NCBI GenBank assembly: GCA_014584605.1
Contig: JACTMO010000028.1
Coordinates: forward strand, 1 to 64,000
Length of the DNA: 64,000 nt
Origin: Bacteroidota bacterium
Lineage (GTDB): Bacteria; Bacteroidota; Bacteroidia; Flavobacteriales_F; PHOS-HE28
Reading direction: 5' to 3'
In this document: positions 7,040 through 59,797 of the stretch, one piece after another
How the letters are laid out: every line of letters starts with the position of its first letter
How positions within the stretch are numbered: position 1 is the first letter of the stretch
Position numbers and translations under genes: made by a program
Notes under the pieces: generated by a model
Seen by the model: the letters and a program-made list of their open reading frames with translations, nothing else
Databases searched by the model: none
What the model was told of the DNA's origin: nothing

Positions 7040-7047
7040 TAAAGATA
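7040..7047 (-). promoter_or_regulatory. Candidate -7 element for pyrG (TATCTTTA)
   Basis: The minus strand reads TATCTTTA, one base off the Bacteroidota -7 consensus TAnnTTTG, 38 nt before the pyrG ATG. It is in the 247 bp gap between pyrG and the TonB-receptor gene, in which I see no other gene. Confidence 0.45.
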
Positions 7048-41980: not shown

Positions 41981-43672
41981 ATGCCGCGCCTTCTCCGCGT
42001 CCTGATCACCCTGCCGCTCCTGATGGTGGAGCTCGTCCTCGGCGTGGCCGTGGCCACCCTGCCCCTGCTGTTGCTGGACATGCGGCTCACCCCGCCGCTG
42101 GCCGATGGGGAGGCGGCCGGGCTGCCCGCGCGCGAGCCCTTCGGCGATGGTGGCTGGCGCACCGCCAACGGCTGGCTTGCACCCACGCCCGATGGTCTGT
42201 GGGAGGCCTATGTGCAGGGGGGCGACCTGGAGCGCGGGCTGGCCATCGGGTCCCTGGCCCGCGAGCTCATCCACCGCCAGGAAGAGCTCTTCGTGCAACG
42301 CATCCGGCTGCTGGTGCCGGACCCCGGCCGGCTGGCCTGGCTGCGCCACTTCATCGGCTTCTTCAACCGCGACCTCGAGGAGCACGTGCCCCTGGAATAC
42401 CGGCGCGAGATCTACGGCGAGAGCCGCGCCTTCGACCCGGCCTTCGACGCCATCGGCACCGGCTACGAACGGGCCCTCAACTACCACGCGGCGCACGACA
42501 TCGGCCATGCGTTGCAGGACCTGGCCTTCGTGGGCTGCACCAGCTTCGCCGCCTGGGGTGGGCGCACGGCCGACGGGCAGTTGCTGATCGGCCGCAACTT
42601 CGACTTCCACCTGGGCGAGGAATTCGCCTGCGACAAGCTGGTGCTGGCCGTGCGGCCCGACAGCGGGCACCCCTTCGTCACCGTCACCTGGGCCGGCATG
42701 CTGGGCGCCGTGAGCGGCATGAACCTCGAGGGCCTCACCGTCACCATCAACGCCTCGCGTTCGGCCCTGCCCACCGGCGCACGCACGCCCATCAGCCTGC
42801 TGGCGCGCGAGATCCTGCAGCATGCGGCCACGGTGGACCAGGCCGTGGCCATCGCACGGCGCCGCGAGGTCTTCGTGAGCGAGAGCATCCTGGTGGGCTC
42901 GGCGCGTGATGGGCGTGCGGTGGTGATCGAGAAGGCACCGGACGGCATGGGCGTGTACGACCCCGGCAACGGGCTGGTGGTCTGCGCCAACCACTACCAG
43001 AGCGAGACCTTCTTCGGCTCGCCGACCAATCAGGCCAACCTGCGCGAGAGCGACAGCATGGCGCGTTACCGCCGTATGCGGACGCTGGCGGTCACCGCCC
43101 CCCCGCTCACCCCTGCGGACGCGGTGCGTCTGTTGCGCGAGCGGCGCGGCCCGGAAGGCCAGGACGTGGGCCTGGGCAACCCCATCGCCATCGACCAGCT
43201 GATCGCGCACCACAGTGTGGTGATGGAGCCGGGGCGGCGGCGGCTCTGGCTGGGCACCGGCCCCTGGACCCTGGGCACCTTCCGCTGTTACGACCTGCGG
43301 GCCATCTTTGCCCGCCACAGCCCGACGCCCGTGCCCTCCCCCCTGCACCGCCCCGAGACCCTGCCTGCCGACACCCTGCTGGCCTCCCCGGCCATGGGCG
43401 ACCTGGTGTGGCACCGCGCCATGCGGGCGGCCCTGCTGGAGCGCCGGGTCACCGGTCGCGTGTACCGCCTGGCCCCCGAGGACGAACGGGACTACGTGCG
43501 CACCGACGCGCACAACGCCATCACCTACAGCGACCTGGCGCAATGGTACCACGCCCTCGGTGACCGGGAGCGTGCGTCGATGTACTACCGGGAAGCGCTC
43601 GCCCGCACCGTGGCCAGCCCCGCCGAACGCCGCACGCTTCAACAGGCCCTGGCCGCATGCGCCCAGAACTGA
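41981..43672 (+). CDS. C45-family Ntn-type hydrolase/acyltransferase
   Basis: A 563-residue protein with an N-terminal helix (about 5-30) and a C45 (penicillin acyltransferase/acid-ceramidase-like) domain. The likely self-cleaving nucleophile is C186 in FVGCTSFAAWG; further family blocks are LIGRNFDFH and GLTVTINASRSALP, and ANHYQSE. Processing would release a 185-residue membrane-attached N-part. Enzymes of this fold form or cleave amide bonds to acyl chains. It overlaps the ligase gene by 16 bp, so it belongs to the cluster; a role in attaching or releasing the polyene is inference only. Confidence 0.85.
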   Translation: MPRLLRVLITLPLLMVELVLGVAVATLPLLLLDMRLTPPLADGEAAGLPAREPFGDGGWRTANGWLAPTPDGLWEAYVQGGDLERGLAIGSLARELIHRQEELFVQRIRLLVPDPGRLAWLRHFIGFFNRDLEEHVPLEYRREIYGESRAFDPAFDAIGTGYERALNYHAAHDIGHALQDLAFVGCTSFAAWGGRTADGQLLIGRNFDFHLGEEFACDKLVLAVRPDSGHPFVTVTWAGMLGAVSGMNLEGLTVTINASRSALPTGARTPISLLAREILQHAATVDQAVAIARRREVFVSESILVGSARDGRAVVIEKAPDGMGVYDPGNGLVVCANHYQSETFFGSPTNQANLRESDSMARYRRMRTLAVTAPPLTPADAVRLLRERRGPEGQDVGLGNPIAIDQLIAHHSVVMEPGRRRLWLGTGPWTLGTFRCYDLRAIFARHSPTPVPSPLHRPETLPADTLLASPAMGDLVWHRAMRAALLERRVTGRVYRLAPEDERDYVRTDAHNAITYSDLAQWYHALGDRERASMYYREALARTVASPAERRTLQQALAACAQN

Positions 43673-44964
43673 TGCTGCCCAAGGGCCTCGACGCCGGGGC
43701 CGTCGCTGCACGACAGGACCGCCTGCTGCGCGAGCACGTGGCCCGGCTGGCCGACCGGTCCCCGCACTACAGGCGCCTTTTCAAGGAGCTCGGCCTGCAA
43801 CCGGGCGACATCAAGGGCACGGCCGACCTGCACCTGCTGCCCTTCACGCGCAACACCGACCTGGAGCAGGCCAGCGATGCCATGCTGTGCGTGGAGCGCC
43901 GGGCGGTGATCGACCACGTGACCACCTCGGGCACCACCGGGCGGCCCGTGGCCCTGCTGCTCGACGAGCCCGACCTGGAACGGCTCACCGCCAACGAGCA
44001 CAACTCGCTGCTGATGGCCGGCGTGACGCGCGACGACGTGGTGCAGTTGATGACCACCCTGGACCGCCGCTTCATGGCCGGCCTGGCCTACTTCCTGGGC
44101 ACCCGGGCGCTCGGTGCCGGCCTGGTGCGCGTGGGGCCCGGGGCCGCCGCGCTCCAGTGGGACAGTATCCACCGCTTCGGAAGCACCGTGCTGGTGGTGG
44201 TGCCCAGCTTCCTGGTGAAGCTGCTCGAACATGCCCGCGCCCACGGCATCGACCCCGCCCGCAGCACCGTACGCAAGGCCATCTGCATCGGCGAGCCCAT
44301 CCACGGCCCCGACGGCGGGTGGAACAACCTGGGCCGGCGCATCAAGGCGGACTGGGACATCGAGCTGCTCGGCACCTACGCCAGCACCGAGATGGCCACG
44401 GCCTGCACCGAGACCCACGAGGGCGGCGGCCACGCCGTACAACCCCAGCTGATGCTGGTGGAAGTGCTGGACGAGCACGACCGGCCCGTGGCGCACGGCC
44501 AGGCGGGCGATGTGGTGGCCACCCCCTTCCACGTGAGTGCCATGCCCTTGTTGCGCTACCGCACGGGCGACATCTGCGTGCGCTACGACGGGGCCATGGA
44601 CGGACGCGGCGGCGGCCTTCACCTGGGGCCCGTGCTGGGCCGGCGGCAGCATCGCCTCAAAGTGCGCGGCACCACGCTCTTCCCGGCGCAGGTGCTGGAC
44701 GCCATCAACGCCCTGCCGGTGATCCCTACCTTCGTCGTCGTCTGCACCACCGACGAACTGGGGGGCGACGACCTGGAGGTGCTGCTCGACCTCGAGGGCG
44801 ATGCGCTGGAGGCCTGCCGTGAGCATCTGCGGGCCGCGCTGCGAGTCGCCCCCCGGATGACCACCCTGCCCGGCGCCGCCATCGAGACGCTCAAGTGGCC
44901 CAAGGACAGCCGCAAACCCCAGCTCTTCATCGACCGGCGCGAAAAAGGTCTGCACATCCCATGA
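43657..44964 (+). CDS. PaaK-like acyl-activating ligase (ANL superfamily)
   Basis: A 435-residue adenylate-forming enzyme of the phenylacetate-CoA ligase type. The phosphate-binding loop is TTSGTTGRP (about 89-97), the second core motif is TYASTEMA, and LRYRTGDI is the hinge region. It would activate an aryl acid as adenylate for loading to CoA or ACP. Next to a tyrosine ammonia-lyase, p-coumarate is the most plausible substrate (inference). It overlaps genes on both sides (16 bp before, ATGA after), so it is made as part of a tight operon. Confidence 0.88.
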   Translation: MRPELMLPKGLDAGAVAARQDRLLREHVARLADRSPHYRRLFKELGLQPGDIKGTADLHLLPFTRNTDLEQASDAMLCVERRAVIDHVTTSGTTGRPVALLLDEPDLERLTANEHNSLLMAGVTRDDVVQLMTTLDRRFMAGLAYFLGTRALGAGLVRVGPGAAALQWDSIHRFGSTVLVVVPSFLVKLLEHARAHGIDPARSTVRKAICIGEPIHGPDGGWNNLGRRIKADWDIELLGTYASTEMATACTETHEGGGHAVQPQLMLVEVLDEHDRPVAHGQAGDVVATPFHVSAMPLLRYRTGDICVRYDGAMDGRGGGLHLGPVLGRRQHRLKVRGTTLFPAQVLDAINALPVIPTFVVVCTTDELGGDDLEVLLDLEGDALEACREHLRAALRVAPRMTTLPGAAIETLKWPKDSRKPQLFIDRREKGLHIP

Positions 44965-45569
44965 ACGGACGTCTGCTCCCCCTCCTCCTCACGGCCCTGC
45001 TGGCCCCTTCCGCCCGCGGGCAACAAAGCAGCCTGGCCGACCTGCTCGCCGACAAGGTGGGCCTGACCTGTATCGGCGTGGACTACTCGGCCACCCGGTT
45101 CACCCCGCGCTACAAGTTCGGTCCGCTCGACGAGGCCGGCCCGGCCTTCTTCAACCGGTGGAACATGCTCTTGGAGACCGAGCCCGACAAGTACACACCC
45201 TGCCCGCAGCTCAAGGTGAACGACTGCAAGGTGGTCACCAGCTATGTGGAACCGGTGAACCGCGAGGTGAAGGTGCCCGAGGTCTGGAACAAGCCCGAGC
45301 TGGGTCCCGAAGGCGTGCAGGAGCTTGTGTCGCGCTACCGCACCGAGGACCAGCCCGGCATCGGCATGGTGTACATCGCCATCAAGTACGACGCACCGGC
45401 CGAGCGGGCGGACTATTTCGTCACCTTCTTCGACATGGCCACCCGCCAGGTGCTCCACACCGAGAAGGTGAGCGCCGAACCCGGAGGTGCGGGCCTGCGC
45501 AACTACTGGGCCTCCACGATCATCAAGGTGAACGAGCAGCTCAAGGGCATCCGCAAGAAACTCCAGTGA
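44961..45569 (+). CDS. Hypothetical secreted protein in the polyene cluster
   Basis: A 202-residue protein with a signal peptide (about 1-20, ending SARGQ). The mature part is mixed alpha/beta with IGVDYSATRF near the start and FVTFFDMATRQVLHTEKV near the end; I do not recognise a domain. Its start overlaps the ligase stop (ATGA). A periplasmic or outer-membrane helper for the pigment is possible but unsupported. Confidence 0.7.
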   Translation: MNGRLLPLLLTALLAPSARGQQSSLADLLADKVGLTCIGVDYSATRFTPRYKFGPLDEAGPAFFNRWNMLLETEPDKYTPCPQLKVNDCKVVTSYVEPVNREVKVPEVWNKPELGPEGVQELVSRYRTEDQPGIGMVYIAIKYDAPAERADYFVTFFDMATRQVLHTEKVSAEPGGAGLRNYWASTIIKVNEQLKGIRKKLQ

Positions 45570-45582: not shown

Positions 45583-46677
45583 ATGACCAGGACGGCATCG
45601 AAGCCAAGGCCGGCGCGCACGGCACGCAAGGAACTGACCGCAGTGGAGGCCAAGGCCGCCGCCCAGCGCATCGCCTTCGGGCCCATGGTCTTCCAGACCT
45701 GCTGGACCATGCAACGCAAAGGGCTGTTCCGCGCCCTCGCCCAGTCCGGCACCAAGGGGCTCACCCGCAAGGAGCTGGCCGAAGCCACGGGGCTTTCGGC
45801 CTATGCGGTTATGGTACTGACGGACATGGCCCTCACCGCCGACGTGCTGGCGATGAACGACGGCCGCATGGTGCTGACCAAGACCGGCGTGATGCTCGCC
45901 TTCGACGACATGACGCAGGTGAACATGGACTTCACGGGCGACGTGTGCTTCGCCGGGCTGGCCCATCTGGAGGAGGCCCTGGTGCAAGGCCGTCCGGTCG
46001 GCCTGCAGGTCTTCGGCGACTGGCCCACGGTGTACCAGGGACTGGCCCACCTGCCCGAACACGTGCGCCGCAGCTGGTTCGACTTCGACCACTATTACAG
46101 CGACCATTCGTTCCCGCCGGCACTGGAGATCGTGTTCCGCGAGCGGCCGAAGGTGGTGATGGACGTGGGGGGCAACACGGGCAAGTGGGCCCTGTGCTGC
46201 CTGCGTCATGATCCCCAGGTGCGGATGATGGTCGTGGACCTTCCCGGCCAGCTGCGCGAGGTGGAGCGCAACGTGCGGGCCGCCGGCCTCAGCGACCGCC
46301 TCACCACGGTGGCGGCGGACATGCTGGACCCGGCGAGCGTTCTGCCCGAGGGTGCGGACGCCATCTGGATGAGCCAGTTCCTGGACTGCTTCGGCGAGGA
46401 CGAGATCGTGGCCATCCTGCGCAAGGCCCGGACGGTGATGCGGCGCGGCATGCCGCTGTACATCATGGAGACCTTCATCGACCGCCAGCGTTTCGAGGCG
46501 GCCTCGTTCGCACTGGCGGCCACCTCGCTCTACTTCACGGCCATGGCCAACGGCAACAGCCGCATGTACCGGGCGGAGCACTTTGCCCCGCTGGTGGAGG
46601 CCGCCGGTCTGCGCGTGGTGGAGGAGCACGACAACGTGGGCCAGGGCCACAGCATCTGGCGCTGCGAGCTGCCCTGA
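45583..46677 (+). CDS. SAM-dependent O-methyltransferase-like enzyme
   Basis: A 364-residue enzyme of the plant/bacterial O-methyltransferase (Methyltransf_2) layout: a winged-helix-like N-domain (about 25-110; TRKELAEATGLSAYAVMVL), then the catalytic domain with SAM-binding VVMDVGGNTGK (about 191-201), an acidic VVDLPGQL after strand 2, and FLDCFGEDEIV after strand 4. Ring O-methylation of an aryl head group is known for related pigment pathways, so this is the likely substrate class. It is 13 bp after the previous gene. Confidence 0.85.
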   Translation: MTRTASKPRPARTARKELTAVEAKAAAQRIAFGPMVFQTCWTMQRKGLFRALAQSGTKGLTRKELAEATGLSAYAVMVLTDMALTADVLAMNDGRMVLTKTGVMLAFDDMTQVNMDFTGDVCFAGLAHLEEALVQGRPVGLQVFGDWPTVYQGLAHLPEHVRRSWFDFDHYYSDHSFPPALEIVFRERPKVVMDVGGNTGKWALCCLRHDPQVRMMVVDLPGQLREVERNVRAAGLSDRLTTVAADMLDPASVLPEGADAIWMSQFLDCFGEDEIVAILRKARTVMRRGMPLYIMETFIDRQRFEAASFALAATSLYFTAMANGNSRMYRAEHFAPLVEAAGLRVVEEHDNVGQGHSIWRCELP

Positions 46678-47129: not shown

Positions 47130-48680
47130 CTACCCCTTCACCACCACCTCTCCGCCCCCGGTCTCGCGCTGGACCTTCTCCACCAGGTAGCGTTTGCCCA
47201 CGAGCTCTGCGCAGGTGACCACGCTGCTCACCGTCACCCCCAGGATGCCGTGCAGGTTGATGTTCTGGCCGGTGAGGAAGAGGTTGGGCACCTTGGTGCG
47301 CGGCGAGAGGTAGGTGCGCATCGGGGCCCGGGCCTCCTTCTGAATGCCGTAGGTGGTACCCTCCGGGCAGCCGATGTAGTCGCGGAAGGTGAGCGGCGTG
47401 GTGGTCCAACGGCCGGTGATCGCGTCGCACAGGGCGGGGTAGCGGCGGTGGACCTGCTCCAGCACCTCCTCGGCCTTGCGTTGCTTGAAGACCTCGTACT
47501 CCTGGTCGCGCGTACCCGGTTCGGCGATGGTGCTGCGCGATCCGGCCCAGCGGGCCACCTCGCTGAAGGGCATGAAGGTCATGAGGGACACGGCATCCAC
47601 CGTGCCGTCACCGCCCTGCATCAAGGGCGTGAACAGCATGTACTGGCCGCGCTGTCGGCCGGATGCCGGGTCCATCGGCGCCCACACGTCATGGTCGGCG
47701 AAATGGTAGTGGTTGTGGTCGTGGTACGGGAGGATGCCGGGGCGCAGGGCCAGATGCACACAGAAGGTGCCGATGGTGTTGTCCATCGCCTTCACCCGGT
47801 TGCGGTAGGCCGGGCGGACGCCCGCGCCGGTGAGCAGGTCCAGCACCGTGGCCGGATGCACGTCGGCCACCACCCGGCGGGCGGTGAAGCGATCGCCGTC
47901 GGCGGTCCACACGGCGCTGATGCCCTTCGCATCCGTGACCAGCCGGGTGACGCGCTTGCGCGGCAGGATCGTCGCCCCATGGGCGCGGGCCTGCCGCGCA
48001 AGCAGCTTGGCCAGCTGCGACCCACCGTCCACGCATCGCCAGGCACTCTCGATGTAGGTGTTGAGCACCAGCGCGTGCATGTAGAACGGGGTGCGGTCGC
48101 CGCGACCGGCGTGCAGCACATTGGGCGCGCCGAGCACTGCGCGCAGCCGTGGGTCGTGCGTCAGCGAAGCGATGTGGTCGCGGGCATTGACCTGCAACGC
48201 CGGGTCCTCCCACTCGTTGTGCCCGGAATAGCGCAGGTAGTACAGCGGGAAGCGTTCGCAGGTGGCGCGCACATCGTCGCTGAAGCGCTGGATGGCCGCG
48301 CGTTCGGCGGGGAAGAGCTCCACCAGGCGCTCCACGAAGTGCGCATGCCCCTGCGCAAGGGGGTGCACGGTGGGGTCGTCGCCGAAGGTGATCCGGTCGA
48401 AGCCGTCCACGTCCATGCGATGCAGCCGCAGGTCGTCGCGGATGCCCAGGTAGCGGAAGTAGCGGTCCAGGTTCTGGCCGGGCAGCAGACCGCCGAGGTA
48501 GTGTACGCCGGTGTCGAAGAGCCGCTTGTCGCGGCTGAACACCTGCAGGCTGCCACCGAGCTGGCTGTTCTGTTCGAGCACGGCGACGTTCAGGCCCTCC
48601 CGCGCCAGGATCACGGCGCATTCCAGCCCGCCGAGCCCGGCGCCGATGATCAGTACATCGTGGTCGCGCTGGTCGCTCAT
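47130..48680 (-). CDS. NAD(P)/FAD-dependent oxidoreductase (CrtI/phytoene desaturase-like)
   Basis: A 516-residue flavoenzyme. The FAD-binding motif LIIGAGLGGLECA is at about 9-21, followed by EQNSQLGG; the C-terminal FAD block is TGQNINLHGILG. The overall layout matches carotenoid-desaturase/isomerase-like enzymes found in flexirubin-type clusters. It may introduce or isomerise double bonds, or hydroxylate the head group; the reaction is unproven. Its ATG overlaps the stop of the upstream transporter fusion (ATGA), so they form one operon divergent from the ammonia-lyase operon. Confidence 0.88.
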   Translation of the reverse strand: MSDQRDHDVLIIGAGLGGLECAVILAREGLNVAVLEQNSQLGGSLQVFSRDKRLFDTGVHYLGGLLPGQNLDRYFRYLGIRDDLRLHRMDVDGFDRITFGDDPTVHPLAQGHAHFVERLVELFPAERAAIQRFSDDVRATCERFPLYYLRYSGHNEWEDPALQVNARDHIASLTHDPRLRAVLGAPNVLHAGRGDRTPFYMHALVLNTYIESAWRCVDGGSQLAKLLARQARAHGATILPRKRVTRLVTDAKGISAVWTADGDRFTARRVVADVHPATVLDLLTGAGVRPAYRNRVKAMDNTIGTFCVHLALRPGILPYHDHNHYHFADHDVWAPMDPASGRQRGQYMLFTPLMQGGDGTVDAVSLMTFMPFSEVARWAGSRSTIAEPGTRDQEYEVFKQRKAEEVLEQVHRRYPALCDAITGRWTTTPLTFRDYIGCPEGTTYGIQKEARAPMRTYLSPRTKVPNLFLTGQNINLHGILGVTVSSVVTCAELVGKRYLVEKVQRETGGGEVVVKG

Positions 48681-51600
48681 GTCGGCTTGTGCAGCGCCGC
48701 CAGGGCGTTGGAGGTGATGCGGCCTGCATCCACCCAATGCAGGCGCAGCCCGTGGGCGGTGGCCATGCGTTCCAGGTCGTGCCGGGCCATGAAGGTGAGC
48801 GGTTCGGCGGTCTTGTTGAAGCCCAGGCCGACGGAGAAGCGCTCGGTCCAGCGGGTGCGGGCGTGGCGTTGCGCATCGCCCGTGAAGCCGTCGCGCACAA
48901 CGATGACGCCGCCGGGCCTGAGGTTGCGGGCACAATGGGCCAGCAGCTCCTCCTGCCGCTGCATGGGCAGGTAGTGCAGGACATCCTTCAGCAGGTAGGC
49001 GTCGGCTGCGGGAGGGGTGTAGCTGCGCAGGTCGGCTTGCTGGAAGCGAAGGCCCGGGCCGCGCAACAGGCCGTGTGCGGCCACGGCCAGCTTGTTGGCG
49101 TCGTGGTCCACCCCGAGCAGGCGGCGCTGCGGAGCGCTCCAGTGCAGCAGGAAGGTGAGCGGCCCATAGCCGCAGCCCAGGTCCACGATGTCGCCGGTGC
49201 GGGGCAGCAGCGCGTGGATGCGGTCGTCCAGCCGGGCGTCGATGCGGGACTTGATACGCACGTACCACTCCAGCACGGGGCCCTTGTAGGTGTACGCGAG
49301 CACCAACTGCCTGCGGAAGAAGGAGGGCGTCTCGATCGAAGTGCGCAACGCCTCGTGCTCACGCTTGAACCAGGTGGCGATGGCCCGGGTGCGGTCCTTC
49401 AGCGGCTCCATCGGGAAACGGTCGTCCCGGGGCAGGACCGCGGGCAGGGTGCGCATGGTGATGGTGGTGTCCTTCAACATGGCATCGCCCTTGGCCATCG
49501 CGTGGCCCACCCCGTGCAGCAGCACCGGCACGATGGGCAGCTGCAGTTCCTGCGCGATGTGGAAGGCGCCCTTGTGGAAGCGGCCGATGCTTCCGTCGCG
49601 GCTGCGGGTGCCCTCGGGGAAGACCACCAGGTTCCAGCCGCGCCGCACCGCATCCCGCACCCGCTCGGTGTTGGTGGCGATGTCGTCCTCGCTACGCACG
49701 AAACCGGTGAACCGCACGAAGGCACCGAAGAAGGGCGAGTTCCACACCCAGCGGTTGGTGAGCATGATGGTGCGCGGGTGCACCATGAGCATCACCAGGA
49801 TGTCCACGAAGGATGTGTGGTTGGCGATCAGGACGGCGGGGCCGCGGCGCAGGGCGGGGTGGAAGTCCTGCACATCCTTGCGCACGTTGGCCATGACGTA
49901 CACCAGGGAGCGGGTGAAGTACATCAGCGAACGGCCGAAGACGCGGCGCTTGGTCTCGCGCGGCACGGGCGACACCGCCACGAGCGGCAGCACCACGAGC
50001 TGCACCAGGCAACCGGCCAGGAAGTAGACGAAGGCGAAAAGCGAGATCAGCAGCGAGCGCAGGGTGAAGGGCAGGCGTCCACGGGCCGCACGGCCGGTGA
50101 TGAGCCACCGGTACAGCATCGGCTGCACGGTGAGGGAGATCACCAGGATGCAGAGCATGCCCACCACGCTCAGCAGGGCGATACTTCGCAAGGCGGGGTG
50201 ACCGGCCAGCAGCAGCACCCCGGTGCCGATCACCGTGCTGGCCACCGAGAGCACCACCCCGGCGCGGATGGCGGGCAGGTCGTCGCTGCCGTCGCGGTAG
50301 CGGTTCAGGATGCCGCTGGCCGTGAACAGGCAGTAGTCATCGCCCAGGCCGAAGATGAAGGTGCATACCAGCACGTTCACCATGTTGAAGGGGATGTCGA
50401 ACAGGCCGCAGATGCCCAGGATCCACACCCAGCTGAGCAGCATGGGCAGGAAGGTGATCAGGGCCAGTTCGATGCGGCCGTAGGTGAGCAGCAGCACGCC
50501 GAACACCAGCAGCGCCGTGGTCCACAGGATGCGTTGCAGGTCGTCGCCCACCAGCCGTTCAAGCCGCTCGCCGAGCAGGCCGCGGTGCAACACCTCGCTG
50601 CCGCTGCCCTCCAGCAGGGTCCGAACGCGGTCCTCCTCACCCGGCCGAACCCTGGCCAGGGACAGGCATCGCACACGCCCATCGGGCAGTCGGATCACGG
50701 TCCCCTCTTCCAGTACGGCCTTGGTGAGGCTGTCAGGCGGGGCGACCGGGCCGTTGGCGAGGGCGTTCAGCAAGGGGGCGAAGGCCTGCGGTGCGAAGTC
50801 GGCCCGGTCCGCCGCGCGGGCGAACCGCTCGCGGAAGTCGGCCGCGGCCTGAGGGTCCAGGGTCTTTCTCCAGCCCTGGCGTGCCCGCTGGCGGTCCCGT
50901 TCCGCCGGCAGCAGGTCCACAGGCGACACCAGGGTGACGAAGGGTGCCGGCGAGGCGGCACGCAGGCGTTCCATGGCCGTACCTGCGGCCCTGCGCGCCT
51001 GCTCCTCATCGGCCGCCTCGTTGACGATGAACACCGTGCGCAGATCGCCGTCGGCGCCGAACAGGCGGTCGCGCAGGTCGCGCATGGAGGCGGGCATGTA
51101 GCTCAGCCGCTCGGGATCGTCCTCGAACCGCACCCGGTCCATGAAAGGCCAGAGCAACAGCGTGACGGTCGCGATGGCCAGGGGGCTCCAGGCCATCACC
51201 CGGCGGCGCCAGGCCGGGACCGGTCGCGGCGCGGCTTCGCCGGCGGGCCGTCCGGCCCAGCGCACCGGGACATGGGGCAGCACCACCAGGGTGAAGAGCG
51301 CGGCGGAGGCCAGCATCAACGCGGCCATCAGGCCCAGGTCGCGCAACAGCGGCGACCCCAGGGTGCGCAGGGCGAGGAAGGCGAGGATGGTGGTGCCGCT
51401 GCCCAGCACCAGGGGCTGGGCGATGTCCCGGACGGTGCGTTCGGCATCGCGGCTGTGGCGCAGGTGTGTGAAGTGGTGCAGCGCATAGTCCAGGGCGATG
51501 CCCAGCAGCGTGGCGGAGACACCGAGGGCGATGGCGGAGACGGTCGGTGCGATCCAGGCGAGGATGGCCAGGGCGTTCAACAGGCCGAACGCCGCCGGCA

Positions 51601-52483
51601 GCAGCACCAGCAGGGGCATGGTCCACTTGCGGTAGAAGCCCAGCAACAGCAGTACGAAAAGGACCACCGAGACCGCCGTGGTGAGGCGGGAGTCCGTGGC
51701 CACGCGTAGGTTGTTGGCGCGTGCGATGGCCGCCGGGCCGAAGACCTCGGCCTGCACACCGCTGCCGCAGGCCTCGCCCATCCGCGCCCGCACCTCGTCC
51801 ACCAGGTGGTCCAGGCTGCTGTCCGGTGCAGGGGATCGCGGGCGCAGGAGCACCACGGCGGTGGTCCCGCTGCGGTCCAGCAGCACGCCGGAGCTGCCGT
51901 CCACGCCGCCAAGGTCGGAGCGGGCGCGCAGGCGCTGTAGATGTTCGTCCAGCAGGTGGGCCGGGTCGCCCAGCACCAGGCGCTCCTGCACCATGCCCCC
52001 GGGACCGAGCAGCCGCGCGCGCACCCCGCCCATCAGGCTGTCCAGCCCGGCATCCGTCAGGGCCACCAGGCGGGCCAGCGCGGTGGTGTCGGCCACGGCG
52101 GGCAGGTCGGCCAGGGCGGCCTCCACTGCGGCATCGAACCACTGCGGGTCCGGCGTGTTGTCCACCTGTGCGAAGCGATCGGCGAGGGGTCCGGTGCGCA
52201 GGGCCCGCACGAAACGGTCGGAGGCCGCGATGGCGCTGTCCACCGGAACACCGGTCGGCGCGGTGAAGCCCACCATGAGGCGGTCGGCACCCGGGGCACT
52301 GCCCAGCAGTTCCCGATAGCGTTGCACCTGGGGGTCGGCGGGCAGGGCCTGGAACAGGTCGTTCACCGGCCGCAGACGCGGCAGCGAGAGCCCCGCGAAC
52401 ACCGCCCACGCGGACAGGAGGACCAGCAGCGTCCATCGCCGCTCACGGAGCATCCGGTACAACGCGCTGAACGCAACTCCCAT
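48677..52483 (-). CDS. MMPL transporter - lysophospholipid acyltransferase - methyltransferase fusion
   Basis: A 1268-residue trifunctional protein. About 1-790: MMPL/RND-like exporter with two sets of helices and periplasmic loops (second set ending IFGLGDDYCLF). About 860-1060: PlsC-type acyltransferase with H889 and D894 (NHTSFVD) and FPEGTRS. About 1085-1268: class I methyltransferase with VDLGCGYGPL (D1101). All three active-site motifs look intact. In aryl-polyene clusters these roles are usually separate (exporter, acyltransferase, methyltransferase), so the fusion should couple acylation or methylation to export. The ATG at 52483 precedes the first helix; ATG at residue 11 is an alternative. 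Confidence 0.92.
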   Translation of the reverse strand: MGVAFSALYRMLRERRWTLLVLLSAWAVFAGLSLPRLRPVNDLFQALPADPQVQRYRELLGSAPGADRLMVGFTAPTGVPVDSAIAASDRFVRALRTGPLADRFAQVDNTPDPQWFDAAVEAALADLPAVADTTALARLVALTDAGLDSLMGGVRARLLGPGGMVQERLVLGDPAHLLDEHLQRLRARSDLGGVDGSSGVLLDRSGTTAVVLLRPRSPAPDSSLDHLVDEVRARMGEACGSGVQAEVFGPAAIARANNLRVATDSRLTTAVSVVLFVLLLLGFYRKWTMPLLVLLPAAFGLLNALAILAWIAPTVSAIALGVSATLLGIALDYALHHFTHLRHSRDAERTVRDIAQPLVLGSGTTILAFLALRTLGSPLLRDLGLMAALMLASAALFTLVVLPHVPVRWAGRPAGEAAPRPVPAWRRRVMAWSPLAIATVTLLLWPFMDRVRFEDDPERLSYMPASMRDLRDRLFGADGDLRTVFIVNEAADEEQARRAAGTAMERLRAASPAPFVTLVSPVDLLPAERDRQRARQGWRKTLDPQAAADFRERFARAADRADFAPQAFAPLLNALANGPVAPPDSLTKAVLEEGTVIRLPDGRVRCLSLARVRPGEEDRVRTLLEGSGSEVLHRGLLGERLERLVGDDLQRILWTTALLVFGVLLLTYGRIELALITFLPMLLSWVWILGICGLFDIPFNMVNVLVCTFIFGLGDDYCLFTASGILNRYRDGSDDLPAIRAGVVLSVASTVIGTGVLLLAGHPALRSIALLSVVGMLCILVISLTVQPMLYRWLITGRAARGRLPFTLRSLLISLFAFVYFLAGCLVQLVVLPLVAVSPVPRETKRRVFGRSLMYFTRSLVYVMANVRKDVQDFHPALRRGPAVLIANHTSFVDILVMLMVHPRTIMLTNRWVWNSPFFGAFVRFTGFVRSEDDIATNTERVRDAVRRGWNLVVFPEGTRSRDGSIGRFHKGAFHIAQELQLPIVPVLLHGVGHAMAKGDAMLKDTTITMRTLPAVLPRDDRFPMEPLKDRTRAIATWFKREHEALRTSIETPSFFRRQLVLAYTYKGPVLEWYVRIKSRIDARLDDRIHALLPRTGDIVDLGCGYGPLTFLLHWSAPQRRLLGVDHDANKLAVAAHGLLRGPGLRFQQADLRSYTPPAADAYLLKDVLHYLPMQRQEELLAHCARNLRPGGVIVVRDGFTGDAQRHARTRWTERFSVGLGFNKTAEPLTFMARHDLERMATAHGLRLHWVDAGRITSNALAALHKPT

Positions 52484-52560: not shown

Positions 52561-54123
52561 TTGACCACCGCTGTGGACATCCGCCAACGCCCCGTGCGCC
52601 AATTGGACATGGATGCCTTCATCGCCATCGCGATGGGCACCGGCACGCTGCGGCCCGCTGCGGAGGACCTGGAGGCCGTGGAGCGTTCGTTCGCCTTCCT
52701 GCTGGACTTCGCCCGCGACAAGGTGATCTACGGCATCAACACCGGGTTCGGTCCGCTGGTGCAATACCACATCCCCGAGGAGGACAGCGAGCGCCTGCAG
52801 TACAACCTGCTGCGCAGCCATGCCTCGGGCATGGGCGCCCCGTTGCCGGACCTCGCGGTGCGGGCCTGCATGCTCAGCCGCGCGATCACCTTCCTGCTGG
52901 GCTGCTCGGGAGTGAGCAGGGCCGTGATCGACCAGCTGTTGCTCTACCTGGAGCGCGGCATCCACCCCACCGTACCGCAGCACGGCGGCGTGGGCGCCAG
53001 CGGCGACCTGGTGCAGCAGGCCCACATCGGCCTGGGCCTCATCGGCGAGGGCACCGGTACCTACCAGGGCGTGCGCCGCCCCATGGCCGACATCCTGAAG
53101 GAGGCGGGCATCACCCCGTTGAAGTTGCGCATGCGCGACGGCCTGGCCATCGTCAACGGCACCGCCTGCATGAGCGGTCTGGGGGCCATCAACGTGCACC
53201 ATGCCCGGCACCTGGTGGACCGCGCCGTGGCCATGGGGGCGCTGATCAGCGAGGTGGTGGGCGCTTACGACGACCACCTGAGCGAGGTGCTGAACGGCGC
53301 CAAGCGGCACAAGGGCCAGAACCAGGTGGCCGCCGACCTGCGCGCACGGCTGAAGGGTGCCGGATGGACCAAGAAGCGGGAGGAGCACCTGTACAAGCAG
53401 CGCGACACCGCCAACGGGGGCATGTTCGACCACAAGGTGCAGGAGCACTACAGCATCCGGTGCATCCCGCAGGTGCTGGGCCCCATCCTGGACACCGTGG
53501 AACAGAGCGCACGTGCGGTGCACGACGAGCTGTTGAGCGTGGACGATAATCCCGTGGTGGACCATCGCACGGCCAGCGTGTACCACGGGGGCAACTTCCA
53601 CGGCGACCAGGTGGCCCTGGCCATGGACCAGTTGAAGCTGGCCATGACCAAGCTGTGCATGCTCACCGAGCGGCAGCTGAACTTCCTGCTGAACGACAAG
53701 GTGAACGGCCGATTCCCGCCCTTCCTGGTGATGGGCCGTCCCGGCATCGACTACGGCCTGCAGGGCATCCAGTTCACTGCGGTGAGCACCACGGCCGAGT
53801 GCCAGGCGCTGAGCACCTCGATGTACGTGCATTCCATCCCCAACAACAACGACAATCAGGACATCGTGAGCATGGGCACCAACGCGGCATGGATGGCCGC
53901 ACGGGTGATCGACAACACCGCGCAGGTGATGGCCGTGCAATGCCTGGCGCTGGCCCAGGCCGTGGACATCGCCGGAGTGAAGGACACCCTGGCGCCGGCC
54001 AACCGGGCCTTCTATGAGGAGGTGCGGGCGGTGGCGGCACCGGTGGTGACCGATGCGCCGAGCACGGCCCTGCTGCACGAACTGCGCACGCGCCTGCTGG
54101 TCCAGGACCTCTTCGCCGGATGA
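52561..54123 (+). CDS. Aromatic amino acid ammonia-lyase, probably tyrosine ammonia-lyase
   Basis: A 520-residue HAL/PAL/TAL-family lyase. The MIO prosthetic group forms from A146-S147-G148 in GGVGASGDL. The catalytic Tyr loop GINTGFGP and late block SIPNNNDNQDIVSMGTN are present. The selectivity pair is SH (NLLRSHASG), formally as in histidine lyases, but tyrosine-specific enzymes from Flavobacterium-type pigment clusters share this by my recollection, and no hut genes are near. Product: p-coumarate, the expected starter. No ATG fits; the TTG at 52561 is chosen because an earlier TTG overlaps the promoter octamer. Confidence 0.88.
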   Translation: MTTAVDIRQRPVRQLDMDAFIAIAMGTGTLRPAAEDLEAVERSFAFLLDFARDKVIYGINTGFGPLVQYHIPEEDSERLQYNLLRSHASGMGAPLPDLAVRACMLSRAITFLLGCSGVSRAVIDQLLLYLERGIHPTVPQHGGVGASGDLVQQAHIGLGLIGEGTGTYQGVRRPMADILKEAGITPLKLRMRDGLAIVNGTACMSGLGAINVHHARHLVDRAVAMGALISEVVGAYDDHLSEVLNGAKRHKGQNQVAADLRARLKGAGWTKKREEHLYKQRDTANGGMFDHKVQEHYSIRCIPQVLGPILDTVEQSARAVHDELLSVDDNPVVDHRTASVYHGGNFHGDQVALAMDQLKLAMTKLCMLTERQLNFLLNDKVNGRFPPFLVMGRPGIDYGLQGIQFTAVSTTAECQALSTSMYVHSIPNNNDNQDIVSMGTNAAWMAARVIDNTAQVMAVQCLALAQAVDIAGVKDTLAPANRAFYEEVRAVAAPVVTDAPSTALLHELRTRLLVQDLFAG

Positions 54124-54866
54124 ACGCCACGCCCGAACGCTACGCCCTGGTCACCGGTGCCTCCCGCGGCATCGGAAGGGCCGTGGCCCTGGCCCTCGCC
54201 GCGGACCACGGGCTCCACATCCTGGTGAACTACGCCCGCGGTGCCGCACAGGCCGAGGAGACCGCCCGGCTGGTGCGCGAGCTCGGGGTGAAGGCCGAGG
54301 TCCTGGGCTTCGACGTCACCGATCGCGAAGCGGTGCATGCCGCCATCAACGCGTGGACCGAGGCGCATCCGGAGGCCCGCATCGAGGTGCTGGTCAACAA
54401 CGCCGGCATCACCAAGGACAACCTCTTCGTCTTCCTGCCGCCGGAGGACTGGCACGCTGTGATCGGCACCAGCCTGCACGGTTTCTACAATGTCACCTCC
54501 GCGGTGATGCAGCGGATGGTGCGCCAGCGCTCGGGTCGCATCATCAACGTGGTGAGCGTGTCGGGTGCCAAGGGTGTGGCCGGGCAGACCAACTACAGCG
54601 CGGCCAAGGCCGCCGTCATCGGTGCCACGCGGAGCCTGGCGCAGGAGGTGGCCAAGCGCAAGATCACCGTGAACGCCGTGGCCCCGGGCTTCATCCGCAC
54701 GGACATGACCAAGGACCTGCCGGTGGACCAGCTCAAGGGCATGATCCCCATGGAACGCTTCGGCGAGCCGCAGGAGGTGGCGCACGCCGTGTCGTTCCTG
54801 GCCTCGCCGCGCGCCTCGTACATCACCGGCGAGGTGCTTCACGTCAACGGCGGCATCCATTCCTGA
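54120..54866 (+). CDS. 3-oxoacyl-ACP reductase (FabG-type SDR)
   Basis: A 248-residue short-chain dehydrogenase reducing beta-ketoacyl-ACP with NADPH. Cofactor motif TGASRGIG (12-19), NNAG (93-96), catalytic S146, Y159 and K163. It overlaps the ammonia-lyase stop (ATGA). In the cluster it supplies the reduction step of each polyene extension (ApeQ-like role). Confidence 0.94.
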   Translation: MNATPERYALVTGASRGIGRAVALALAADHGLHILVNYARGAAQAEETARLVRELGVKAEVLGFDVTDREAVHAAINAWTEAHPEARIEVLVNNAGITKDNLFVFLPPEDWHAVIGTSLHGFYNVTSAVMQRMVRQRSGRIINVVSVSGAKGVAGQTNYSAAKAAVIGATRSLAQEVAKRKITVNAVAPGFIRTDMTKDLPVDQLKGMIPMERFGEPQEVAHAVSFLASPRASYITGEVLHVNGGIHS

Positions 54867-54873: not shown

Positions 54874-56097
54874 ATGGAGCGGGTCGTCATCACCGGCATG
54901 GGGATCTGGTCCTGCCTGGGCAAGGACCTGGCGGAGGTGGCCGACAGCCTGCGCACCGGCCGCTCGGGCATTGTGTTCGACCCGGTGCGCAAGGAGATGG
55001 GCTTCCGCAGCGCCCTCACCGGCAAGGTGGACATGCCCGACCTGAAGGCCCAGCTGGGGCGCCGCCAGCGCGTGGGCATGGCCGAGGAATGCTATTACGC
55101 CTATGCCGCCACCGAACAGGCCTTCCGGCAGGCGGGCATCGGGGAGCGCACCTTCCAGGAGCACGCAGTGGGCATCCTGTACGGCAACGACAGCAGCACG
55201 CAGGCGGTGGTGGATGGCGTGGATGCCCTGCGGCGCAAGAAGGACACCACGCTCATCGGGTCGGGTTCCATCTTCCAGTCGATGAACTCGACGGTGACGA
55301 TGAACCTGGCCACCATCTTCGGCCTGCGCGGTATCAACTTCACGGTGAGCGGGGCCTGCGCCAGCGGCTCGCACGCCATCGGCATGGGCTACCTGCTGAT
55401 CAAGCAGGGGCTCCAGCGCATCGTGCTCTGCGGCGGCGCGCAGGAGGTCAACCCGGTGGCCTTCTGCAGCTTCGACGGCATCTCGGCCTTCAGCGTGCGT
55501 GAGTCGGACCCCACGCGCGCCTCGCGCCCCTTCGACCGCGGCCGAGACGGGCTGGTGCCCAGCGGCGGCAGCGCGGCCCTGGTGCTGGAGAGCCTTTCCT
55601 CGGCGCAGGAGCGCGGTGCACCGGTCCTGGCCGAGGTGGTCGGCTACGGCTTCTCCTCCAACGGCCTGCACATCAGCGACCCCGATCTGGACGGCCAGGT
55701 GCGCGCCCTGCGCATGGCCCTGAACATGGCCGGCATGGGCCCGTCGGACATCGGCTACATCAACGCCCACGCCACCTCCACCCCCATCGGCGACCTGGTG
55801 GAGGCCCAGGCCATCGACGCGGTCTTCGGCGCCGCACGCCCCCCGGTGAGCAGCACCAAGAGCCTCACGGGTCACGAGTGCTGGATGGCCGGCGCCAGCG
55901 AAGTGGTGTACAGCGTATTGATGATGCTGGGCGGCTTCCTGGCCCCGAACCTTAATTTTGAGGAACCCGACGAGGCCTCGGAACGTTTGAACGTGGTGCG
56001 CAGCCCGATGGACCATCGGGTGGACGCGCTGCTCTCGAACTCCTTCGGCTTCGGGGGGACCAACTCGACGATCATCATCAAACGCTACACCGGTTGA
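54874..56097 (+). CDS. Beta-ketoacyl-ACP synthase (KS, FabB/F-type) with intact active site
   Basis: A 407-residue condensing enzyme. Catalytic triad C162 (GACASGSHA), H299 (NAHATSTP) and H334 (LTGHECWMAGA), with the C-terminal Gly-rich loop NSFGFGGTN. It should elongate ACP-bound chains. It starts 7 bp after the reductase gene and ends 1 bp before an ACP gene. Confidence 0.94.
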   Translation: MERVVITGMGIWSCLGKDLAEVADSLRTGRSGIVFDPVRKEMGFRSALTGKVDMPDLKAQLGRRQRVGMAEECYYAYAATEQAFRQAGIGERTFQEHAVGILYGNDSSTQAVVDGVDALRRKKDTTLIGSGSIFQSMNSTVTMNLATIFGLRGINFTVSGACASGSHAIGMGYLLIKQGLQRIVLCGGAQEVNPVAFCSFDGISAFSVRESDPTRASRPFDRGRDGLVPSGGSAALVLESLSSAQERGAPVLAEVVGYGFSSNGLHISDPDLDGQVRALRMALNMAGMGPSDIGYINAHATSTPIGDLVEAQAIDAVFGAARPPVSSTKSLTGHECWMAGASEVVYSVLMMLGGFLAPNLNFEEPDEASERLNVVRSPMDHRVDALLSNSFGFGGTNSTIIIKRYTG

Positions 56098-56098: not shown

Positions 56099-56359
56099 AT
56101 GAGCACCGTTGCGCAACGGGGGGAGATCGAAGCCCGCACCAAGGTGTTCCTGGTGGAGGAGTTCGAAGTGCAGGAGGACCTGATCCTGCCGGACGCCGAC
56201 ATGAAGGAGACCCTGGCGCTGGACAGCCTGGACTATGTGGACCTGGTGGTGGTGATCCAGGACAACTTCGGGGTGAAGCTCACCGCCGAGGACTTCCAGC
56301 GGATCGGCACCTTCGCGGATTTCTACGAGCACATTGAGCAGCGCATCGCCCGCTCCTGA
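56099..56359 (+). CDS. Acyl carrier protein 1 of the cluster
   Basis: An 86-residue carrier with the phosphopantetheine attachment site S43 in LALDSLDYVDL. The acidic helix II is typical. It lies directly behind the first KS. The downstream acyltransferase starts inside its last 26 bp. Confidence 0.93.
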   Translation: MSTVAQRGEIEARTKVFLVEEFEVQEDLILPDADMKETLALDSLDYVDLVVVIQDNFGVKLTAEDFQRIGTFADFYEHIEQRIARS

Positions 56360-57305
56360 GCCGCAGCCCGCGGCCTGGCAGGGCCGCAGTCGGGGCACTC
56401 CGCTCGGCCATCGCATCTTCATCTTCCTGATCCGTCGCGTGGGCCTGTGGGCGGCCTATGCCCTGCTGGTCCCCGTCGCGCTCTACTTCGTCCTCGCCGC
56501 GCGCGAGCCCGGACGTGCCTGGCTGCGCTACTATGCCCGGGTGTGTCCCCAGGACCGCAGGCCCCGCCCGTGGGTGCTCTTCCGCGCCTATCAGGAATTC
56601 GGCAAGCTCATCATCGACAAGGCCGCCGTGATGGCCGGGCTGCAGCACCGCTTCCGGACGGACCACCAGGCGGCGAACACGCTGCAACGCATCCTCGACG
56701 CGGGCCGCGGCGGGCTGCTCATCAGTGCCCATGTGGGCAACTGGCAGATGGCCAGCTACATGCTGAAGCGCTACCGCGGGCAGGTGAGCGTGGTGATGCT
56801 CGACGCCGAGGAGCAGGCCATCAAACAGGCGCACGACCAGGCCACCCAGGACCGGCGGTACGAGGTGATCGCGCTGAAGGACGACCTCTCGCACCTGTTC
56901 CGCATCCGGGGCGCCCTGGCCGAGGGTCGGCTGGTGTGCATCCACGGCGACCGCGCGCTCGCCGGCGGCCGTACCGCGCGCGTGCCCTTCCTGGGCCAAG
57001 AGGCGCCCTTCCCCCTGGGGCCCTTCGCCATCGCTGCCGCCTTCGATGTGCCGGTGTGCTTCTCCTTCGTGCTGCGCACAGGCCCCCGCCGCTACACCTT
57101 CACGGCCACCGACCCCCTGCCCCACCATCGCGATGCCACCGTGCAGCTGACCCGCTTCGCGGCCGCGTTGGAAGCGGTAGTGCGACGCCATCCCTTCCAA
57201 TGGGCCAACTTTTATGAATTTTGGAGCGATGCCCCTGCCGCTGCCCAAGGGCGAGGCCGTGCTGCAGTTCCTGCCGCACCGCCCGCCGATCGTACTGGTC
57301 GATGA
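56334..57305 (+). CDS. LpxL/HtrB-like acyltransferase
   Basis: A 323-residue membrane-associated acyltransferase of the lipid A acyltransferase family. It has an N-terminal membrane helix (about 26-55), the catalytic H133 in LISAHVGNWQ, and CIHGDRALAGG. The family start (WQGRSRGTPLG) requires a TTG at 56334 that overlaps the ACP gene by 26 bp; no better start is available. The C-terminus runs 92 bp into the next gene and is longer than usual beyond FYEFW. It may acylate the polyene or its carrier lipid. Confidence 0.85.
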   Translation: MSSASPAPEPQPAAWQGRSRGTPLGHRIFIFLIRRVGLWAAYALLVPVALYFVLAAREPGRAWLRYYARVCPQDRRPRPWVLFRAYQEFGKLIIDKAAVMAGLQHRFRTDHQAANTLQRILDAGRGGLLISAHVGNWQMASYMLKRYRGQVSVVMLDAEEQAIKQAHDQATQDRRYEVIALKDDLSHLFRIRGALAEGRLVCIHGDRALAGGRTARVPFLGQEAPFPLGPFAIAAAFDVPVCFSFVLRTGPRRYTFTATDPLPHHRDATVQLTRFAAALEAVVRRHPFQWANFYEFWSDAPAAAQGRGRAAVPAAPPADRTGR

Positions 57306-57675
57306 GCTGATCGCCTCCGACGGCGACAACCACCTTACGCGGCTCACCGTGCGGCCGGACAACGTGTTCACCGAGAACGGACACCTGCTGGAGGCCGGGT
57401 TGATCGAGCACGTGGCCCAGAGCACCGCACTGGGCACCGGCTACGCATCCGCCGGGGCCGGGGAGGGCAGCCCGCCGGTGGGCTTCATCGGCGCCGTTTC
57501 CCGCCTGCGGATCGAACGCCTTCCCGCCGTGGGCGAGCAGCTGGAGACCACCGTGGCCATGCAGCACCGGCTGGTGCAGGTGCAGGTGCTGCAAGGCACC
57601 GTGCGTTGCGGCGCAGCGGTGATCGCCACGATGGAGATGAAGGTCTTTCTCATGGGTCCTGCCGATGCGGCCTGA
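57214..57675 (+). CDS. 3-hydroxyacyl-ACP dehydratase-like hotdog protein
   Basis: A 153-residue hotdog-fold protein. LPHRPPIVLVDEL is the entry found in ApeI/FabZ-like dehydratases, and FTENGHLLEAGLIEHVAQS holds the likely active-site region. It should dehydrate hydroxyacyl-ACP to enoyl-ACP, keeping the polyene conjugated. An ATG at 57229 is an alternative that shortens the overlap with the acyltransferase gene. Confidence 0.82.
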   Translation: MNFGAMPLPLPKGEAVLQFLPHRPPIVLVDELIASDGDNHLTRLTVRPDNVFTENGHLLEAGLIEHVAQSTALGTGYASAGAGEGSPPVGFIGAVSRLRIERLPAVGEQLETTVAMQHRLVQVQVLQGTVRCGAAVIATMEMKVFLMGPADAA

Positions 57676-58087
57676 ACTGACCGACCTCTGCGAGGTACCG
57701 ATCACCTTCGGCGACCTGGACCCCATGGGCATCGTGTGGCACGGCAACTATGTGAAGTTCATGGAGCGCGGCCGCGAGTCCTTCGGCAGGGCGCACGGGC
57801 TGGACGCCATGCGGATCCTCGAGCTGGGCTTCACCACCCCGGTGGTGCGCACCGTGATCGACCACAAGGCCATGCTCGAGTACGGCGACCTGGTGGAGAT
57901 CGCCACCACCCTTATCCCGCAGGCCGCGGCCAAAGTGGTGCTGCGCTACCGGATCAAGGCCAGGGGCCGCAGCGCCGTCGCGGCCGTGGCCGAGACCACC
58001 CAGGTGTTCCTGGACCGGGAGCGCCGCTTGCAGCTGGTGGACCCGCCCTTCTACCAGGAATGGAAACAGCGGCACGGGATCCGATGA
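57665..58087 (+). CDS. 4HBT-type acyl thioesterase
   Basis: A 140-residue hotdog thioesterase; the D18 region FGDLDPMGIVWHGNYVKFME is the 4-hydroxybenzoyl-CoA thioesterase signature. It could release or proofread chains on ACP (ApeK-like role). Overlaps the dehydratase by 11 bp and the next KS by an ATGA. Confidence 0.9.
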   Translation: MRPELTDLCEVPITFGDLDPMGIVWHGNYVKFMERGRESFGRAHGLDAMRILELGFTTPVVRTVIDHKAMLEYGDLVEIATTLIPQAAAKVVLRYRIKARGRSAVAAVAETTQVFLDRERRLQLVDPPFYQEWKQRHGIR

Positions 58088-59196
58088 ACGGACCGATCCT
58101 GCTGGGGGCGCCCGGCTGCGTGACCCCCCTGGGCGCCTCGCTGGAGGAGAGCTTCGCCGCGATGCATGCCGGGCACTGCGGCCTGCGCCCGGAACCCTTC
58201 CCCGGCAGCGAAGCACCCGTGCATGTGGGCCGCTGCGACGAAGCCGTGCTCACCGGCGGCGGAAGAAGGGCGCAGCGCCTGCTGGGCGCGGCCGTGCGCC
58301 AGAGCATGGGCGGCCTTGCGCGCAGCCTGCGCACCCTGCCCCGCACCGCCTGGGTGCTGGCCACCACCAAGGGCGACGTGCGGGCCCTGGAGGAGGGCCG
58401 ACCCGGCGACGCGGAGCTGCCGCGCTTCGCCAGCCGGGCGGGCATCGCCCTCGACCTGCCCGGCGCCCCGATCGTGGTCTCCAACGCCTGCATCTCCGGC
58501 ACGCTGGCCATACAGCTGGCCGCCGACATGGTCCGCTACGGAGAGATGGACCACGTGCTGGTGACCGGGCTCGACGAGGCCACGGACTTCGTGCTCTCGG
58601 GCTTCCACTGCCTGCATGCCATCGCCAGCGGTCCCTGCCGCCCCTTCGACGATGCGCGTGACGGCATTTCCCTGGGTGAGGCCGCCGCCTCGTTGGTGGT
58701 GACGCGCGACGCCGGCCTGTTCCGGCACGGGCCCATCGCCACCTACCTGGGCGGCGCCATGGGCAACGACGCCAACCACATCTCGGGCCCCTCGCGCACC
58801 GGTGAAGGCCTGGTGCGGGCGGTGGACGCGGCGCTGCAGCAGGCCGGGTTGACCGCTGCGGCGGTGACGCACGTGAACGCCCACGGCACCGGCAGCGTGT
58901 ACAACGACGGCATGGAGCACATCGCCTTCAGCCGGCTGGGCCTGGGCCACGCCCCGGTGAACTCCTACAAGGGTTACTTCGGCCATACGCTGGGCGCGGC
59001 GGGCCTGGTGGAGACCCTGTTGGCGGTGCACGGGCTGCGGCAGGGTCTGATGCTGCGCAGCCTCGGGGCCACCTGCTCGGCCACGCTGCCGGGCATCGAC
59101 GTGCTCCACACGCACCGCCCCACCGCCGGGCGCACGCTGCTGAAGACCTCCTCGGGCTTCGGAGGCTGCAACGCCGCCATCCTTCTGCGCGCATGA
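58084..59196 (+). CDS. Second ketosynthase (KS) with intact active site
   Basis: A 370-residue condensing enzyme, somewhat shorter than the first. Triad C136 (SNACISGTLA), H267 (NAHGTGS) and H301 (YFGHTLGAAG) is complete. It is coupled by ATGA to the thioesterase before it and to a short degenerate KS after it, which suggests that these two form a KS heterodimer. Confidence 0.92.
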   Translation: MNGPILLGAPGCVTPLGASLEESFAAMHAGHCGLRPEPFPGSEAPVHVGRCDEAVLTGGGRRAQRLLGAAVRQSMGGLARSLRTLPRTAWVLATTKGDVRALEEGRPGDAELPRFASRAGIALDLPGAPIVVSNACISGTLAIQLAADMVRYGEMDHVLVTGLDEATDFVLSGFHCLHAIASGPCRPFDDARDGISLGEAAASLVVTRDAGLFRHGPIATYLGGAMGNDANHISGPSRTGEGLVRAVDAALQQAGLTAAAVTHVNAHGTGSVYNDGMEHIAFSRLGLGHAPVNSYKGYFGHTLGAAGLVETLLAVHGLRQGLMLRSLGATCSATLPGIDVLHTHRPTAGRTLLKTSSGFGGCNAAILLRA

Positions 59197-59795: not shown

Positions 59796-59797
59796 CC

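Follow-up and report, generated by a model that had tools for sequence, protein, structure and literature searches.

A three-domain fusion in one frame

We analysed a window of 64,000 nucleotides from a Bacteroidota bacterium (assembly GCA_014584605.1, contig JACTMO010000028.1, positions 1 to 64,000) and focused on a long gene at 48677-52483 of the minus strand. It is a single ATG-started frame of 1268 residues plus stop, with zero internal stops. An exporter, an acyltransferase and a methyltransferase follow each other in this frame, which is the order of the architecture that NCBI calls trifunctional, and the assignment draws on the frame itself, Pfam matches and relatives. We confirm that this three-part fusion is widespread in Bacteroidota, that its architecture is already known, and that it is here part of a flexirubin-type pigment cluster. 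What our analysis adds is that the three domains have fared unequally and that a surplus methyltransferase is present.

The exporter part (residues 1-800; 50084-52483) has the two halves with transmembrane segments of an MMPL/RND protein. PF03176 matches it in two stretches with 72.6 bits (gathering cut-off 20.5), and hydrophobic segments lie at residues 16-37, within 261-409, at 429-448 and within 648-796. Fold matches to HpnN (5khs, root-mean-square deviation 10.9) and MmpL3 (7nvh, 4.9) appear in the lower rows of a search list that is filled by methyltransferases and excludes no lower-ranked MMPL family.

The acyltransferase part (residues 801-1050; 49334-50083) shows the features of the PlsC/AGPAT family. 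Residues 878-988 match PF01553 with 84.7 bits (gathering cut-off 23), H889 and D894 form the HX4D motif, the FPEGTRS motif occupies residues 955-961, and a two-helix membrane motif is present. The NCBIfam model for 1-acylglycerol-3-phosphate acyltransferases gives the fusion 82 bits, below its cut-off of 102.95. The methyltransferase part (residues 1095-1265; 48689-49201) has the fold and motif of a class I S-adenosylmethionine (SAM)-dependent enzyme. Methyltransf_25 (PF13649) matches residues 1099-1192 with 48.7 bits, above its gathering score. Motif I, DLGCGYG, spans residues 1101-1107 and begins with D1101; the acidic residue D1126 follows.

An AlphaFold model of residues 801-1268 reached a mean predicted local distance difference score of 92.3 and a predicted template modelling score (pTM) of 0.89. 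Residues 805-1053 superimpose on the Thermotoga maritima PlsC structure (5kym_A) with Z 26.7 and a root-mean-square deviation of 2.9 over 240 of 241 positions, two-helix motif included. In a larger model (residues 420-1268, pTM 0.79), the first PlsC helix follows the last exporter helix after a short loop. Because of the usual topology of MMPL proteins and the hydrophobic segments, it is plausible that the acyltransferase and the methyltransferase lie on the cytosolic side, tied to the exporter.

The source genome holds one copy of the fusion and one other weak match, to the methyltransferase part alone. Since many relatives' genomes share the architecture and the gene is single-copy, we ruled out a chance frame or an assembly join. 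Meanwhile, a plus-strand frame of 1006 residues overlies the fusion; it has no Pfam match and is most likely the kind of shadow frame that a GC content of 68% usually brings.

We sampled 395 genomes from the phylum, and 31 of them (the source window included) carry a matching open frame of at least 1165 residues, a count that may be too low because two candidates were scored per genome. For the window's order we compared 45 genomes, which all belong to its own genus: in 10 the frame is complete on a single contig (L001, L032-L035, L037-L041), and two others (G399, G421) have the fusion in pieces at contig ends. The distribution within the genus looks patchy, with several of the 45 genomes incomplete. 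A contig scan of named genomes matched at least 593 stretches, 578 of which encode a relative. We kept the best 80 of these 578, and all 80 are titled Bacteroidota or taxa inside Bacteroidota, including Chitinophaga, Dyadobacter, Mucilaginibacter, Alistipes and Phocaeicola vulgatus ATCC 8482. Together with 39 from the genome search they form our main comparison set of 119 fused relatives, 116 of them distinct (L060-L062 are identical in sequence to L040, L041 and L039). The set includes some partial or short frames, namely L112 (996 residues), L075 (1126), L024 (1165) and L107 (1185).

In Aureispira anguillae, NCBI names such a protein a 'trifunctional MMPL family transporter/lysophospholipid acyltransferase/class I SAM-dependent methyltransferase', so annotators already recognise this architecture. 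We found no paper on the three-part fusion in the open-licence literature. An earlier reading of this DNA from its letters alone, hereafter the sequence-only reading, had placed the three domains in one frame, and the frame and the Pfam matches above gathering scores bear this out; H889, D894 and D1101 stand intact at exactly the positions it named. Its statement that pigment loci of Bacteroidota contain similar fusions agrees with the NCBI name and the relatives' loci.

Unequal conservation of the three parts

All 119 relatives keep the HX4D histidine and D716 of the exporter; the HX4D aspartate is present in 118 and replaced by glutamate in one. The third acyltransferase motif is more variable, with EA replacing EG in 7 of the 24 relatives that have lost the SAM motif. 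Of the 119, 95 have this SAM motif, [DEN]xGxGxG, intact (92 with D, 2 with E, 1 with N), and 24 have lost it. On a tree built by FastTree only, from the exporter and acyltransferase columns, the lost state requires two changes, one for a clade of 23 and one for L024, which has a long branch and an unsure placement. A further lost motif, in genome G331, stands outside these counts.

Mean pairwise identity within the motif-lost group is 59% for residues 1-420, 59% for the acyltransferase and 39% for the methyltransferase; within the intact group the values are 35%, 44% and 43%. We estimated selection from the ratio of nonsynonymous to synonymous change (dN/dS). In the lost clade the estimates are rough, with synonymous distances above 1. 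In its family f5 (11 relatives, 51 to 53 pairs), median dN/dS is 0.053 for the exporter, 0.102 for the acyltransferase and 0.243 for the methyltransferase, the last being about 2.4 times that of the acyltransferase. In family f4 (2 to 5 pairs) the medians are 0.036, 0.054 and 0.155. In the window's genus (6 pairs) they are 0.218, 0.196 and 0.197. We guess that f4 and f5 are Flavobacteriaceae and Weeksellaceae. As the ratio of the methyltransferase in the lost clade is raised yet still purifying, the domain appears relaxed rather than neutral, and a residual structural role is possible.

In the phylum sample, two genomes carry the exporter alone, as frames of 812 residues in G118 (L051, 6075-8513) and 834 residues in G347 (L052, 6480-8984). 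The frame in G118 lies inside an otherwise full pigment cluster, and the next frame there encodes a 294-residue protein with no NCBIfam match.

The surrounding pigment cluster

The gene content of the window is that of a flexirubin-type cluster: FlxA, FlxJ, LolA2 and type II polyketide synthase genes lie in the cluster, and DarB lies elsewhere in the genome. Against the curated NCBI cut-offs, FlxA, FlxJ, LolA2 and DarB score below, and the FlxB-type reductase above. The next gene downstream, which shares 4 bases with the fusion, encodes a CrtI/CrtD-like oxidoreductase that uses flavin adenine dinucleotide (FAD) (47130-48680, minus), and it adjoins the fusion in many relatives too. Divergent from the fusion, on the plus strand, run the FlxA tyrosine ammonia-lyase (52573-54123; 693 bits, cut-off 700), the FlxB-type ketoreductase (54120-54866; 376 bits, cut-off 340), a ketosynthase (54874-56097), an acyl carrier protein (56099-56359), an LpxL-like acyltransferase with 28% identity to the C-terminal half of E. 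coli ApeJ (56439-57305) and an ApeK-like thioesterase (57665-58087). They are followed by ketosynthases or chain-length-factor-like proteins with a second acyl carrier protein (58084-62057, the carrier protein at 59798-60058), a polysaccharide deacetylase (62054-62812), a LolA2-type periplasmic carrier (62820-63440; NF053544, 99.5 bits, cut-off 125) and a FabZ-like dehydratase (63445-63831).

Beyond the oxidoreductase, but on the plus strand, lie a C45/AAT-family acyltransferase or peptidase (41981-43672), an AMP-dependent ligase (43657-44964) and the FlxJ-family methyltransferase (45643-46677). Between the last two, a 202-residue protein (44961-45569) has zero Pfam or NCBIfam matches. Its relatives occur in clusters of G238, G253, Phocaeicola and Alistipes, and none is among the matches listed for the motif-lost clusters of G170, G210 and G226. 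Among the cluster-sharing matches listed, no gene is lost exactly with the fused SAM motif.

A DarB relative (48% identity, 520.6 bits) lies on another contig of the source genome, so a resorcinol-ester pigment is likely for this organism, judging from gene content. We weighed whether the fused acyltransferase forms the ester that joins the aryl polyene to the dialkylresorcinol, an assignment that we think unlikely. It would suit a domain that sits in a flexirubin cluster. In a survey of 52 self-chosen, non-random genomes, strong DarB (at least 498 bits) was found in 24 of the 38 tested genomes with an intact fusion, and neither exporter-only genome has it. However, the other 14 of the 38 lack strong DarB and still keep HX4D, and the acyltransferase is thus kept without a resorcinol ester. 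Moreover, the dar part of a related cluster has its own BtrH-related acyltransferase, DarH, and the ligase-like FlxW was proposed for the ester by the authors of a flexirubin study (PMC3992019). Among the E. coli pigment proteins compared, ApeD is the one that matches the fused acyltransferase (30% of 96 residues, E 6.6e-12); its deletion led to late intermediates that the authors thought badly attached, and ApeM was proposed as the transporter (PMC8253772). Taken together, the fused domain probably performs an ApeD-type acyl transfer rather than formation of the resorcinol ester.

A second methyltransferase beside the fusion

The separate FlxJ gene is the expected ring methyltransferase. It aligns with E. 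coli ApeB at 49% identity over 342 residues, full length (E 5e-120), shares its two-domain Pfam layout with a Dimerisation2-like domain, and scores 469 bits with NF053543 (curated cut-off 560). The fused domain of the window matches neither NF053543 nor the Dimerisation2-like domain, and we rejected its identification as the ApeB/FlxJ enzyme. From these comparisons we take the fused domain for a second, predicted methyltransferase that is separate from FlxJ, the expected ring enzyme.

In the labelling experiment reported for Chitinophaga pinensis, labelled methionine adds one methyl (+3 Da) to the aryl fragment of flexirubin and none to the resorcinol fragment (PMC3992019). With a single ring methyl known and a separate FlxJ present, no visible methyl is left for the fused domain. 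A FlxJ/ApeB-type gene lies beside an intact-motif fusion in nine named Chitinophaga/Flexibacter isolates (L063-L069, L072, L130) and in a Chitinophaga metagenome-assembled genome (MAG; L070). In Chitinophaga sedimenti (G450, L075), the motif of the fusion is intact, and the FlxJ relative beside it (C1:6278906-6279908) is broken into three pieces and contains an internal stop.

The FlxJ survey covered 44 genomes plus those belonging to 77 of the 80 named loci (50 + 27), with matches of at least 240 bits counted as strong and weaker ones as absent; many of these genomes are incomplete MAGs, which makes the absences soft. The resulting 116 rows leave out G399 and G421 (both with strong FlxJ), G331 (no FlxJ) and the duplicates L060-L062. 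Intact motif and strong FlxJ coincide in 74 rows, 18 have the intact motif without strong FlxJ, 3 have lost the motif and keep FlxJ (G226, G202 and G394), and 21 have neither. One of these three, the 1165-residue fusion of G394 (L024; cluster in L171), stands in a genome with strong FlxJ, no FlxA match and no strong DarB; that cluster may start from another aromatic acid.

Does the fused domain methylate the ring after all, alone or with FlxJ, on the polyene being loaded for export? The frequent joint presence would fit, and the 18 intact rows without strong FlxJ could rely on the fused domain instead. In addition, Methyltransf_2 matches the fusion weakly (30.3 bits against a cut-off of 22.3), and two Dyadobacter genomes (G452, G455) have a fused domain to which the FlxJ model gives weak matches of 22 to 24 bits. 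With kinship ignored, Fisher's test gives p = 1.1e-9 for the 116 rows and 1.3e-11 for the first 89; the weakening of the co-occurrence on widening the survey led us to rate ring methylation slightly higher. We rejected the co-occurrence as proof, since the fused motif changed state only twice. A tree-aware test finds two independent pairs that differ in the motif, with no significance, so relatedness could explain the raw link. Conversely, in 14 of 15 independent cases where FlxJ differs the fused motif does not, a pattern consistent with two separate steps. Against ring methylation also stand the full-length ApeB counterpart in FlxJ, the lack of a FlxJ-model match in the window's fused domain and the FlxJ genes kept in three genomes with the motif lost. 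We consider ring methylation by the fused domain decidedly unlikely.

Proposed role of the fusion

We propose that the fusion is an inner-membrane assembly-and-export component of the flexirubin/aryl-polyene pathway, combining acylation and export of a pigment lipid with an optional accessory methylation. To us this proposal is evenly balanced between right and wrong. The PlsC-type domain, anchored by its two helices on the cytosolic face, would transfer an acyl group (aryl polyene or fatty acid) to a membrane lipid acceptor; acyl transfer by the separate E. coli ApeD has been proposed in print (PMC8253772). The MMPL part would then move the finished pigment lipid to the periplasmic side by means of the proton gradient and hand it to LolA2 and an outer-membrane partner. 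A cluster acyltransferase, LolA and an exporter were suggested earlier for pigment export in flexirubin (PMC3992019), and the F. johnsoniae flexirubin locus is reported to hold LolA2 and LolB2 (PMC11885536). The fused methyltransferase would be an accessory second enzyme whose target is the lipid or acceptor, not the pigment ring. To judge from the lost motifs it is dispensable over evolution, and loss of D1101 need not alter the extractable pigment.

From the enzymatic domains tied to the exporter, the sequence-only reading suggested modification at the moment of export. The view that all three activities cooperate as one such unit is weakened by the separate ring enzyme FlxJ, by the loss of the SAM motif in 24 of 119 relatives and by the two exporter-only genomes.

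Several observations weigh against our own proposal. The exporters without fused enzymes in L051 and L052 mean that the fusion is not required for export everywhere. D332 in the first exporter half is not conserved, and L084, which has an intact SAM motif, carries alanine at the E957 position of the third acyltransferase motif. The cluster holds other acyltransferase candidates (LpxL-like and C45/AAT-type), with DarH in relatives. As 18 of 92 intact-motif rows lack strong FlxJ, the two methyltransferases are not always paired. If C. pinensis DSM 2588 is like its genus, judging from other Chitinophaga loci, it would have both methyltransferases; L122, a MAG that bears the title C. pinensis, contains a fusion with the motif intact but gives no FlxJ match, and as it groups apart from other Chitinophaga in the tree, its title is doubtful. 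Finally, we found no experiment on the fusion or a close relative, nor a functional study of the A. anguillae protein, in the open-licence literature.

A more specific idea, which we offer tentatively and think rather unlikely, is that the fused methyltransferase works at the inner membrane and adds a second methyl to the head group or the acceptor of the pigment lipid, or that SAM binding gates export. If so, the second methyl would have been missed because the published extraction analysed free flexirubin, and motif loss in a large clade would mark a changed exported lipid, with a pseudo-enzyme left on the pump. A non-catalytic role in every member, as a scaffold or as a SAM sensor, is very doubtful: the domain does stay attached under weaker purifying selection where the SAM motif is destroyed, but the motif and most family residues are kept in the 95 intact relatives, favouring catalysis there.

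Our proposal of joint acylation and export bears on the route of flexirubins and aryl polyenes to the outer membrane, as the fusion indicates that acyl transfer and export sit together. Natural mutants whose methyltransferase is dead, or which lack FlxJ, DarB or the fused enzymes, could separate the role of each part, and two methyltransferases against one known methyl pose a concrete question for mass spectrometry.

Comparison with known systems

The T. maritima PlsC shares its fold and two-helix motif with the fused acyltransferase. In contrast to the fused domain, it is a stand-alone enzyme, at 20% identity, and the title of its PDB entry gives lysophosphatidic acid as substrate.

The family of E. 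coli ApeB and FlxJ consists, like the methyltransferase part, of SAM-dependent methyltransferases from the same kind of pathway. It differs in its N-terminal Dimerisation2-like domain, and in the window its member is a gene apart from the fusion.

ApeM and ApeD of E. coli CFT073 provide an MMPL exporter and a PF01553 acyltransferase in a related aryl polyene cluster. Unlike the parts of the window's fusion, they are separate proteins with no fused methyltransferase, and the match of ApeM to the exporter is weak (25% of 202 residues, E 1.8e-4). By eye, without an alignment, the position of D716 looks like asparagine in ApeM (L059, 6398-8716, minus).

A close counterpart in architecture is the A. 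anguillae protein WP_264793640.1, encoded on plasmid pAUEa, which has the same three parts and aligns by tblastn over query residues 1-1266 at 31.7% identity. It is followed by the same three neighbours, an FAD oxidoreductase, a C45 peptidase and an AMP-binding protein. The fusion and these three usual neighbours are plasmid-borne there (L174, pAUEa 1-8459), and a recombinase gene lies about 6 kb beyond. The A. anguillae fusion differs from that of the window in host lineage and in sequence.

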